Shown here one piece after another: positions 1,730 to 4,417 of a DNA stretch of 41,764 bases. The notes below the pieces were generated by a model. That model did no database searches, was not told the origin of the DNA, and was given only the letters and a program-made list of their open reading frames with translations. The DNA lies in assembly GCF_024345795.1 (NCBI RefSeq), contig NZ_JAGQBU010000025.1, positions 1 to 41,764 of the forward strand, in the 5' to 3' direction. Numbering within the stretch: position 1 is the first letter of the stretch; each line of letters starts with the position of its first letter. The position numbers and the translations under genes are program-made. Source of the stretch: Synechococcus sp. J7-Johnson (lineage in GTDB: Bacteria; Cyanobacteriota; Cyanobacteriia; PCC-6307; Cyanobiaceae).

Positions 1730-2909
1730 GACGAGGCAGGAGCAGGCCATAAAGGCCAGCCAGGCCCAGTACCACGGGCACCAGCAGGGCGGGCACGCCG
1801 GCCAACCCCATCTCAGCGGCGATCCAGCCCAGCGACGTGGGCACAACAACCGCACCGGCACTGGCGGCACTGGTGGCGAAGCCGACGGCGGCCGGCACCA
1901 AATGGACGGGCAGGCGCCGCGGGATCAGCAGGATCGTGGCGGGAAAGATCCCGGCCAGGCCGAATCCCGCCAGTGGCAGGGCAACCCATGGCTCGGTCCC
2001 ATGGGACCAGCCGATCTGGGCCGCCAGCAGCAGGGCGAGCGAGCAGCTGATCCACCGGATCACGCCCAGCCGCCCCACCAGCCCACCGAAACAGAATCGG
2101 CCCGCCGTGAGCCCAAGCCAGTAGAGGCTGATTCCGATGCCGGCAGCCACCGCCGATTGGGAGCGGCCGAGGTGCTGAACACTGAAGCCCCAGGTGCCGA
2201 TCGAGGCCTCGATGCCCACCGCACTCAGCAGCACCAGCCCGCTCAGCCCCACGGCAGGCCGCCGCAGGGCCTGCCCCAGGACTCGCCAGTCGCCGCCTTC
2301 AGCCGCTGGGGGACGCTGCCACGGGCAGGTCCGGCGTTGCCGCCAGACCACCAGCAGCACCAAGCCGCTCAGGCCGGCCAGCACCGCGTAGACCAGGCGC
2401 CAACCGCTCCCCAGGGCCAGCAGCGTGGTGGCGATCGCCGGCCCCGTGAAGGCGCCGACGCCGTAGAAGCCATGCAGCGGGCCGATCAGCCTGGCGCCGG
2501 CCTCGTGCTGCGCCACGGCCGTGTTGAGGCCGGCGTCGATCAGACCGATGCCCAGGCCCACCGCCACACCCGTTGCCACCATCACGTCCCAGCGGGGGGT
2601 CAGGGCGTAGAGCAGCAGGGCCGACGCCAGCAAGGTGAAGGCCACCATCAGCATCCGGTCAAGCCCCAGCCGGCTGTTCACCACGCCGTTCAGCAAGGCC
2701 GCGAGGGCATAGCCACCGATCTGGCTGGCCAGCAACAGCGTCACCGACCCCGTGCTCAGCACGAAGGTGTCCAGCAGCGAGGGAACCAGCACGCCGAGGG
2801 CCGCTTCCACCGCCCCGATGACCACAAAGGCGGAGCAGGCCACCCCCATCCGCAGTTCGCCCGGTGCGTCAGCCATCGGAGTGGGAGCGGTGGGACGGGG
2901 TGGCATCAC
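1722..2909 (-). CDS. MFS transporter
   Basis: A 395-residue major facilitator with about twelve hydrophobic segments. The sequence resembles the fucose-permease/YbjJ-type branch: a first helix with GAVEAALGVLVPSLL, a cytoplasmic loop with NSRLGLDRM, a helix rich in Gly (VGLGIGLIDAGLNTAV), then GPLHGFYGVGAFTGPAIA. It probably exports or imports a small polar metabolite across the inner membrane; the substrate is unknown. ATG 2909 overlaps the stop of the preceding DMT gene (ATGA), supporting this start over the in-frame ATG at 2876; neither has an obvious ribosome-binding site. It is the third gene of the leftward operon. Confidence 0.85.
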   Translation of the reverse strand: MMPPRPTAPTPMADAPGELRMGVACSAFVVIGAVEAALGVLVPSLLDTFVLSTGSVTLLLASQIGGYALAALLNGVVNSRLGLDRMLMVAFTLLASALLLYALTPRWDVMVATGVAVGLGIGLIDAGLNTAVAQHEAGARLIGPLHGFYGVGAFTGPAIATTLLALGSGWRLVYAVLAGLSGLVLLVVWRQRRTCPWQRPPAAEGGDWRVLGQALRRPAVGLSGLVLLSAVGIEASIGTWGFSVQHLGRSQSAVAAGIGISLYWLGLTAGRFCFGGLVGRLGVIRWISCSLALLLAAQIGWSHGTEPWVALPLAGFGLAGIFPATILLIPRRLPVHLVPAAVGFATSAASAGAVVVPTSLGWIAAEMGLAGVPALLVPVVLGLAGLYGLLLPRHG

Positions 2910-3349
2910 TGCGGCGTAACGCCACGGCGAACATCAACAGCAGCACCGCCAGCCAGCGGCCGGGCCCGTTCTGGCGCTGGGGGACCCCCCAGCCAGCCCC
3001 AGTGATCGATCAGCAGCGAGCCGATCAACTGGCTGAAGACCACCGTCATGGTGGTGGCGGTGAGTCCGAGTCTGGGAATCACCAGGGTGGACAGGGTCAC
3101 GTAGAGGGCGCCGAGCATGCCGCCGCAGAGGGCCCAGGGCGGGACCTCGGCGAGACGCTCCAAGCGGCCAGCACGGAAACCTCCCAGGGCCAGCAGCAGG
3201 CTGAGGGCGGCGGCACCCACCAGGAAATTGATCGTGGCGGCGGCCACCGCGGAGCGCAGGCTGCCGCCCAGACGCGCATTGGCGGCCCCACCCAACGAGA
3301 GAAGACTGCCTGCCGAAAAGGCTCAGAGCACGGCCGAAAAGGGGTTCAT
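2906..3349 (-). pseudogene. Second DMT (YdcZ/DUF606-type) transporter, in-frame TGA at codon 9
   Basis: The expected start ATG 3349 overlaps the stop of the upstream paralogue (ATGA) as in every other junction of this operon. Codons 1-8 read MNPFSAVL, codon 9 is TGA (3323-3325), and the frame then continues open for about 138 codons: AFSAGSLLSLGGAANARLG, then hydrophobic helices with TINFLVGA, PPWALCGGMLGALYV and QLIGSLLIDHWGWLGG. These are the landmarks of the YdcZ/DUF606 DMT family, including the D-H-x-G-W-L-G motif shared with its neighbour. Either the gene is inactivated by a nonsense change, a shortened product starts downstream (first ATG at 3295, lacking most of helix 1), or the base is a sequencing error. 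Confidence 0.75.
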
Positions 3350-3849
3350 CGCCCACCCCCCGGCTGGGTGAGCAGGGCCATGGCTGCCAGGAACAGCGCC
3401 ATGGCCGCGTAGCCCCGGGCGCCGAGACGCTGGCGGCGCACCCCCAGCCAGCCGTGGTGATCCATGACGAGGCCGGCGACCGCCTGGCCCGCCACCACCA
3501 GACCAAGCGTCAGAGTGGCGCCGAGACTCGAGATCACCAGGGTGCTGGAGCTGACATACCAGGCGCCAAGCACCCCGGCCAGCAGGCTCCAGCGCGGCGC
3601 CGTCCGGATCGCCCGCCAGTCGGGTGCCGGCATGAGGCCACTGAGCAGCAGCCCGACCAGGGTGACCGAACCCAGCAGATAGGAGTGGAGGGCGGCGAGA
3701 GGAACGGACTGGAGCGACTGGGCCAGCTGGGCGTTCATGGCCGCCTGCACCGGCAGCAGGGCGCCGGCCAGCAGGGCCATCGCCACCGGCATGGCCGAGG
3801 ACACGGGGACGACAGGCAGCGTCGAGCGGGGCAGAGGCAGGCAAGACAT
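3346..3849 (-). CDS. DMT transporter, YdcZ/DUF606-type
   Basis: A 167-residue integral membrane protein with five hydrophobic helices. Landmarks are LLAGALLPVQAAMNAQLAQSL in helix 1, WSLLAGVLGAWYVSSSTLVI, then GLVVAGQAVAGLVMDHHGWL. These mark the small, half-size YdcZ/DUF606 branch of the drug/metabolite transporter superfamily, in which two such units often work as a pair. Here the partner (2906-3349) follows with an ATGA overlap but carries an early stop. It is the first gene of the operon; ATG 3849 lies only a few bases from the palindrome at 3856-3870. A start at the internal ATG after residue 19 is possible, since the first residues look non-conserved. Confidence 0.82.
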   Translation of the reverse strand: MSCLPLPRSTLPVVPVSSAMPVAMALLAGALLPVQAAMNAQLAQSLQSVPLAALHSYLLGSVTLVGLLLSGLMPAPDWRAIRTAPRWSLLAGVLGAWYVSSSTLVISSLGATLTLGLVVAGQAVAGLVMDHHGWLGVRRQRLGARGYAAMALFLAAMALLTQPGGGR

Positions 3850-3855
3850 CTCGAT

Positions 3856-3870
3856 ATCAAGAGACTTGAT
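3856..3870. promoter_or_regulatory. Inverted repeat, candidate MarR operator O2
   Basis: ATCAAG-AGA-CTTGAT is a perfect six-base inverted repeat with a three-base centre, the usual size of a MarR-family site. It lies between the predicted -10 box and ATG 3849 of the leftward operon. Its TCAAG half sites match those of the palindrome at 3892-3903, 33-36 bases away, roughly three helical turns. Confidence 0.65.
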
Positions 3871-3873
3871 TCG

Positions 3874-3902
3874 AAGCTAGGGGCCGGTTGTCTTGACGTC
3901 AA
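3874..3902 (-). promoter_or_regulatory. Promoter of the DMT-MFS-VOC-DUF1349 operon
   Basis: On the minus strand TTGACG (3902-3897), a 17-base spacer and TAGCTT (3879-3874) form a near-consensus sigma-70-type promoter. The predicted start would fall within or beside the palindrome at 3856-3870, about 15-25 bases before ATG 3849. This is pattern-based only. Confidence 0.5.
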
Positions 3903-3903
3903 G
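3892..3903. promoter_or_regulatory. Perfect 12-bp palindrome, candidate MarR operator O1
   Basis: CTTGACGTCAAG is a perfect palindrome 14 bases upstream of the MarR start. Its half site TCAAG is shared with the second palindrome at 3856-3870. Read leftward, its TTGACG serves as the -35 element of the operon promoter, so occupancy should block polymerase. Confidence 0.65.
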
Positions 3904-3916
3904 CTATTCTCGAGCC

Positions 3917-4417
3917 ATGGCCTCCGACCGCATCGACCAGATCCTGAGCCAGTGGCAGCAGGCGTCCCCGGCGCTGGATGTCTCCGCTCTCGCCGTGGTG
4001 GGGCGGATCCTGCGCATCGCCCGGCTGCTGGAGCGCCAGCGCGAAGCGTTGCTGGTCCCCCATGGGCTGAGCGTCTGGTCCTTTGATGTGCTGGCCACAC
4101 TGAGGCGGCAGCCTCCGCCGCACCAGCTCACCCCCACTGAGCTATACGGCGCGTTGATGCTGTCCTCGGGAGCGATGACCAACCGGATCGATCGCCTGGA
4201 GGGCGACGGCCTGGTCGAGAGACACCGCGAAACAACGGATCGACGCAGCGTCCTGGTGCGGCTCACGGCCAGGGGCGTTGAGGTGGTGGAGACGGTGCTG
4301 CCTCAGATCCTTGGCAGCGAGCGGGAACGGCTGGAACAGTTCACGACGTCGGAGGAGCGTGATCTGCTGGCAGGACTGCTGCGCCGCCAGCTCCTGGCCC
4401 TGGACGCCTGCGATTGA
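3917..4417 (+). CDS. MarR-family transcriptional regulator
   Basis: A 166-residue winged-helix regulator. After an N-terminal dimerisation helix it shows VWSFDVLATLRR, LTPTELYGALMLSSGAMTNRIDRLEGDGLVER (helix-turn-helix recognition helix), then the wing RHRETTDRRSVLVRLTARG. This is the typical MarR arrangement. It is transcribed divergently from the transporter operon with 67 bases between the start codons, and two palindromes occupy that space, so it probably represses both itself and the operon until an unknown ligand binds. I start at ATG 3917 (MASDRIDQIL); an upstream in-frame TTG at 3893 would lie inside the palindrome. Confidence 0.92.
   Translation: MASDRIDQILSQWQQASPALDVSALAVVGRILRIARLLERQREALLVPHGLSVWSFDVLATLRRQPPPHQLTPTELYGALMLSSGAMTNRIDRLEGDGLVERHRETTDRRSVLVRLTARGVEVVETVLPQILGSERERLEQFTTSEERDLLAGLLRRQLLALDACD

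Follow-up and report, generated by a model that had tools for sequence, protein, structure and literature searches.

How the 67 bp gap (positions 3850-3916) between a MarR-family regulator gene (3917-4417, forward strand, 166 amino acids) and a divergently oriented YdcZ-type exporter gene (3346-3849, reverse strand) may be controlled, and by which sites, is the question raised by this locus of Synechococcus sp. J7-Johnson (assembly GCF_024345795.1, contig NZ_JAGQBU010000025.1). The window, i.e. the whole stretch of DNA analysed, comprises 41,764 nt (positions 1-41,764, forward strand). The original prediction placed two palindromes in the gap and both are indeed present, namely ATCAAG-AGA-CTTGAT at 3856-3870, a pattern found at a single place in the 2.99 Mb genome, and CTTGACGTCAAG at 3892-3903. 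When the gap (3850-3916) was subjected to 5000 dinucleotide-preserving shuffles, at least one palindrome with 6-bp arms and a loop of 0-4 nt appeared in 7.6% of the shuffles, at least two such palindromes in 1.5%, and a perfect 12-mer palindrome in 1.8%. An origin of the gap palindromes by chance alone is unlikely, yet the shuffle evidence is not overwhelming when taken by itself.

The two palindromes had been read as sharing a half-site and lying about three helical turns (~34 bp) apart. They are not copies of one site, as the order of the half-sites is reversed (TCAAG...CTTGA versus CTTGA...TCAAG). The match to CTTGACGTCAAG is instead CTCGATATCAAG at 3850-3861, which shows one mismatch to the pattern CTTGANNTCAAG and lies 42 bp, or 4.0 turns, centre to centre from its partner. 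The two 18-bp candidate operators are hereafter called O1 (exporter side, 3847-3864, core 3850-3861), the first three bases of which double as the start codon for the first exporter gene, and O2 (regulator side, 3889-3906, core 3892-3903). To score these sites, a symmetrised matrix (consensus TATCTTGATATCAAGATA) was derived from 34 other cyanobacterial loci, the window clade, the hold-outs, the paralogs and the other phyla all being outside the training set. The training positions in the 34 loci were fixed after a pattern scan, hence the scores of those loci are partly circular. Among all 18-mers in 41.7 kb, O1 (18.5 bits) and O2 (17.6 bits) rank first and second, the third reaching 1.7 bits, and the 99% maximum of random first-order Markov sequences modelled on the upstream regions was 6.9 bits. 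In addition, O1 is the sole place in the genome within three mismatches of the consensus.

The palindrome ATCAAG-AGA-CTTGAT is composed of the right half of O1 and the left half of a weak third site (3862-3879, core 3865-3876 CTTGATTCGAAG) located 15 bp from O1. A TCAAG-NNN-CTTGA junction is to be expected here, since sites 15 bp apart create it automatically. Centred on 3863, the junction is not a site of the operator motif by itself and scores -24.4 bits as one. The weak third site is so poor by score (-0.6 bits) that binding may not occur there.

Phylogenetic footprinting, which had been proposed together with the original prediction, found the sites conserved where the MarR-DMT arrangement is kept. 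The homolog search retained the best 80 of 168 confirmed loci, and the footprinting sample consisted of 42 cyanobacterial orthologs, eight of the window clade (window included) and 34 others. Duplicates were removed (L003, L004, L006, L007 and L008 represent the same genomes as L011, L012, L013, L014 and L015), L010, which matches in part only and has an in-frame stop, was excluded from the upstream scan, and of seven hold-outs from a separate genome search five were used, L095 and L097 being repeats of L025 and L032. L104 was excluded from the paralog group and the distant L105-L121 were left out. With the pattern CTTGANNTCAAG, taken from O2 of the window, and up to two mismatches, sites start exactly at -67 and -25 in 35 of the 42 orthologs, a count in which the start codons of L030 and L044 are still uncorrected; among the remaining seven, L012 deviates by a single base and L025, L033, L039 and L049 are without one of the sites at this stringency. 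The O2-position site (-19.5) is found in all eight window-clade loci. Outside cyanobacteria, at least one site of at least 8 bits precedes the regulator in 34 of 41 loci and two or more in 17; seven of the 41 have no site of at least 8 bits and 24 have no pair. A cyanobacterial relative of 42% identity (L104) has no site in the 110 bp preceding its matched part.

Dyad symmetry, anchored on the start codon, was compared between the two cyanobacterial groups, and the dyads strong in both are those at -61.5 (O1) and -19.5 (O2). Of six base pairs, the 34 other loci (with the start codon of L030 misplaced) keep 5.18 at -61.5, 4.94 at -27, 4.47 at -19.5 and 3.47 at -54, and seven of the eight window-clade loci (L012 being left out) keep 5.43 at -19.5, 4.71 at -61.5 and 4.57 at -54. 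These values bear on the pair as first proposed, that is, ATCAAG-AGA-CTTGAT (centre 3863) and CTTGACGTCAAG (centre 3897.5), ~34 bp apart, acting as the operators. In the window clade, its -54 dyad nearly equals that of O1, and a similar junction dyad is present at -27 in the other cyanobacteria, where it even exceeds the O2 dyad, which counts against the explanation preferred here. However, in the 34 other loci the -54 dyad falls far behind that of O1, the half-site order of the 3863-centred palindrome is opposite to that of O2, and junction dyads arise automatically from sites 15 bp apart. This offset is the most frequent secondary one elsewhere, seen in 14 of 94 offset checks in non-cyanobacterial loci and in 6 of 16 in three paralogous loci. 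We therefore regard the first-proposed pair as highly improbable. What stands of the two-site switch is a conserved MarR-operator-type pair between the regulator and the divergent exporter operon, with the partner of O2 re-registered to 3847-3864.

The distance between the centres of O1 and O2 is hardly variable. When sites of at least 8 bits are counted, 33 of the 34 other cyanobacterial loci, 7 of 8 window-clade loci and 4 of 5 hold-outs share a distance of exactly 42 bp. L033 (58 bp) and L012 of the window clade (43 bp) deviate from it, as does the hold-out L099, which has one weak site only (11.7 bits). The spacings outside cyanobacteria include 33 bp (five loci), 53 bp (two) and 43 bp (two), and tend to fall near whole helical turns (R 0.57 for a period of 10.5 bp, with p ~0.009 for 15 values chosen by hand and p 0.0002 for 17 values, close relatives included). 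This phasing is only suggestive, as the spacings were picked by hand, R is at least 0.47 for all periods of 8.5-12.5 bp, and periods of 10.0 and 11.0 bp fit equally well. In a paralogous cyanobacterial group (L101, L102 and L103), arrays of three or four sites were observed upstream of the regulator, those of L101 being spaced by 15, 26 and 15 bp; the adjoining gene is EamA in L101 and YdcZ in L102 and L103.

The leftward promoter meant by the original prediction is probably made up of TTGACG (3902-3897, reverse strand) and TAGCTT (3879-3874, reverse strand), separated by 17 nt. These boxes are conserved in the window clade (TTGACG in 8/8 loci and TAGCTT, at this position, in 7/8), but the promoter is weak and other cyanobacteria more often keep another, overlapping one. 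A consensus promoter scan of 3800-4000 returned no promoter-like sites, and the promoters considered here were deduced from conservation, with box counts made by hand from the site listing. In the 34 other loci, an upstream leftward promoter is represented by TTGAY at -35 to -30 (32/34) and by TATCTT inside O1 (30/34). A second one, 15 bp nearer the regulator, has its -35 box in O2 (TTGAY, 18/34) and TATCTT as the -10 box (15/34), and both have 17-nt spacers. Of these two, only the second persists in the window clade, the upstream promoter having been lost there (TTGAY 0/8). On the regulator side, a -10-like box TATTCT (3905-3910, forward strand) is replaced at the same position by TATAAT in 20 of the 34 other loci and by near variants in the rest. 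It lies 7-12 bases before the start codon and would give an almost leaderless mRNA. The leftward -35-like box lies wholly within O2, which also shares 2 bp with the -10-like box of the regulator.

Such an arrangement permits a reading in which the constant 42 bp is dictated by promoter geometry, that is, by leftward promoters that overlap and that use operator half-sites for part of their boxes, rather than by contact between dimers. The near-invariant boxes of the upstream promoter, the -10 of which is one half of O1, are in its favour, as are the second promoter with its -35 box in O2 and the 17-nt spacers of both. Yet just over half of the other loci (18/34) have the box by which O2 would be linked to the rest, the window clade retains 42 bp in 7/8 loci without the upstream -35 box, and the spacings elsewhere cluster near whole turns, although at periods of 10.0 and 11.0 bp as well as 10.5 bp. 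We consider promoter geometry a possible explanation of the spacing, with chances appreciably below even.

As for the protein itself, the product of 3917-4417 contains a MarR-type winged helix-turn-helix (Pfam MarR 1.5e-12, MarR_2 4.4e-12). The closest PDB chains by phmmer are 8ylh and 8ylf, which are not named in the literature searched, and these are followed by a group including 7xl9 at 1.2e-15, the best named structure match, which is HucR with urate according to the available part of the source (PMC12893000). In the aligned sequences, window included, W13 is found in 91/91, D57 in 85/91, R90 in 91/91 and R102 in 91/91, the values for W13 and R90 being inflated by the peptide patterns of the homolog search, which contained both residues. 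Residues D57, R90 and R102 align with D73, R106 and R118 of HucR (presumably also the protein of entry 2fbk), and we take these positions to be urate-binding, so that the Asp and Arg residues of a urate-type pocket would be present. W13 lies in an N-terminal extension, and an extension with a conserved tryptophan is given for PecS proteins in the accessible text of PMC6391409. Since HucR is the best named match, the W/D/R/R positions are kept and the operator motif resembles the PecS site of Vibrio vulnificus, the regulator looks like a member of the urate-responsive (UrtR/PecS/HucR) MarR subfamily. Of 300 genomes examined from the family, no more than nine (that of the window included, one match being partial) carry a relative of the regulator, which suggests patchy inheritance.

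The signal could be of another kind, with the regulator sensing quinones or phenolics in the manner of MhqR rather than urate. The Staphylococcus aureus MhqR operator, TATCTCGAA-ATCGAAATA, opens with the same half-site form, and MhqR governs dioxygenases and quinone reductases (both from the part of PMC12893000 at hand); the operon here includes a VOC-fold protein. On the other hand, HucR is the closest named structure and the urate-type W/D/R/R positions are retained, and a quinone or phenolic sensor seems to us rather unlikely.

The original prediction of a five-gene unit of exporters and small modifying proteins was correct as to the five genes, all on the reverse strand, except that the second one is broken. 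The YdcZ-type DMT exporter gene at 3346-3849 (Pfam DMT_YdcZ 7.5e-34) is followed by a second YdcZ-type gene (2906-3349; DMT_YdcZ 5.8e-31 on its open part), an MFS transporter gene (1722-2876; MFS_1 5.8e-30), a gene for a VOC (glyoxalase-fold) protein (1313-1729; Glyoxalase 1.8e-14) and a DUF1349 gene (705-1316; DUF1349 5.4e-57). In the second YdcZ gene there is an in-frame stop shortly after the start and a frameshift shortly before the end. The gene is open in all five relatives compared, and here it is either a pseudogene or the product of a sequencing error. Because the genes overlap or, in the case of one pair, lie 29 bp apart, YdcZ-YdcZ-MFS-VOC-DUF1349 is likely to be carried on a single transcript. 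In Cyanobium sp. Morenito 9A2 (L011, 3873-3971), only 33 MFS residues were matched, and the MFS gene seems to be largely lost there.

The gene adjacent to the regulator varies among the 34 other cyanobacterial loci. As found by tblastn with ten queries within 1500 bp, and by Pfam on examples, the first divergent gene is YdcZ in 17 loci, SDR in seven, VOC in six, and MFS, SnoaL, RidA or nothing in one each. SDR, VOC, both YdcZ, MFS and DUF1349 genes are all present in L026, and SDR, both YdcZ and MFS genes in L017; since these loci hold several of the genes together, loss from a larger shared cluster is a simpler explanation of the varied neighbours than replacement. Outside cyanobacteria, an EamA (PecM-like) gene is divergent to the regulator in 15 of 41 loci by tblastn, and of ten divergent proteins scanned with Pfam, seven contain EamA, six of these belonging to the 15 loci.

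The best explanation of the locus, to which we assign a probability of about 0.78, is that a UrtR/PecS-type dimer acts on O1 and O2, represses both directions and is released by a ligand. The homodimer would bind both 18-bp operators. Its presence on O2 would block the leftward -35-like box and reach into the -10-like box of the promoter for the regulator gene, while O1 is situated shortly after the predicted leftward start, over the start codon of the exporter; with O2 on the boxes of both promoters and O1 past the leftward start, the two directions would be repressed together. With a spacing of 42 bp, four helical turns would separate two dimers that face the same side of the DNA, and the weak third site, located 15 bp inside O1, might become occupied when the protein is abundant. 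A small planar ligand, either of the urate/xanthine type or some other compound of heterocyclic or phenolic nature, would occupy the W13/D57/R90/R102 pocket and release the dimers, thereby turning the exporters on. What sequence comparison shows is the motif with its registration, spacing and conservation, together with the subfamily signature; DNA binding, repression from the proposed promoters, cooperativity and the nature of the ligand are inferred. An autoregulatory double operator of the UrtR/PecS kind is an ordinary and, as far as sequence comparison goes, well-supported prediction. It provides a precise and testable operator map, with two predicted 18-bp sites 42 bp apart and a junction that may be mistaken for an operator. 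Moreover, the regulator could serve as a sensor in a search for the inducer of the predicted efflux/modification set (the YdcZ pair, MFS, VOC, DUF1349 and, in some species, SDR).

A degenerate core, CTYGAYRTCRAG, occurs at nine places in the genome, O1 and O2 among them, versus three for the reversed control. On contig C62, two operator-like cores 13 bp apart were noticed at 1404-1428, inside an ORF that resembles a glycosyltransferase by sight. A regulon beyond this locus is not claimed; the C62 pair, the one stretch inspected out of three, lies inside an ORF. A protein search of a plasmid collection matched 264 records, 262 of them under 60% identity.

Among the titles and abstract beginnings covered by the literature search, a MarR and YdcZ locus of this sort was not found, a cyanobacterial PecS was not found among the matches listed, and the motif letters retrieved nothing on MarR. 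Cyanobacterial members may nevertheless already stand in a published survey of the urate signature. Several characterized systems, known to us from parts of the respective papers, offer themselves for comparison. The single site of HucR in Deinococcus radiodurans lies between its gene and that of uricase (PMC5487221). HucR is the best named structural relative and its D/R/R positions align with those of the regulator described here, the differences being two predicted sites and exporters instead. The likeness considered for S. aureus MhqR is one of operator form, namely a similar half-site start, TATCTCGA; MhqR targets quinone detoxification genes, whereas the genes at this locus are others. 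In Burkholderia thailandensis, the UrtR member MftR is divergent from an MFS efflux operon and represses both directions (PMC6963729). The similarity considered in this case is one of gene arrangement, an UrtR-type regulator facing an efflux unit with an MFS gene, which here is third in the unit, behind two YdcZ genes.

The closest parallel in layout is PecS-pecM of V. vulnificus and Agrobacterium fabrum, in which a MarR gene whose product has an N-terminal Trp is likewise divergent from an exporter gene of the DMT superfamily, with palindromic sites in the gap and the half-site TATCTT. According to the sections of PMC6391409 available, PecS of V. vulnificus protects two pseudo-palindromic sites of the form TATCTTTATATTAAGATA between the divergent pecS and pecM, 57 bp apart and predicted to be on opposite faces of the helix, and the A. 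fabrum gap contains three palindromic sites, two of which overlap. The predicted O1 and O2 are likewise 18-bp palindromic sites in a divergent gap and are similar in form to TATCTTTATATTAAGATA when compared by eye, but their centres are 42 bp apart, on the same face. The divergent gene lacks the two EamA domains of PecM and is DMT_YdcZ, hence the locus is PecS-like but not pecS-pecM. Tentatively, and less probably than not, the cyanobacterial loci might represent a frozen module, in which an UrtR-type regulator and two operators exactly 42 bp apart on the same helix face, with half-sites doubling as boxes of one or two overlapping leftward promoters, have persisted next to changing neighbours (YdcZ pair, SDR, VOC, SnoaL, RidA, MFS), so that it may answer a non-urate cyanobacterial signal by way of two phased dimers, in a complex differing from the one suggested for V. 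vulnificus PecS. The sources consulted describe the urate-type MarR switch in Deinococcus, in Streptomyces and in bacteria associated with plants or animals, and the locus presented here would extend it to free-living cyanobacteria.
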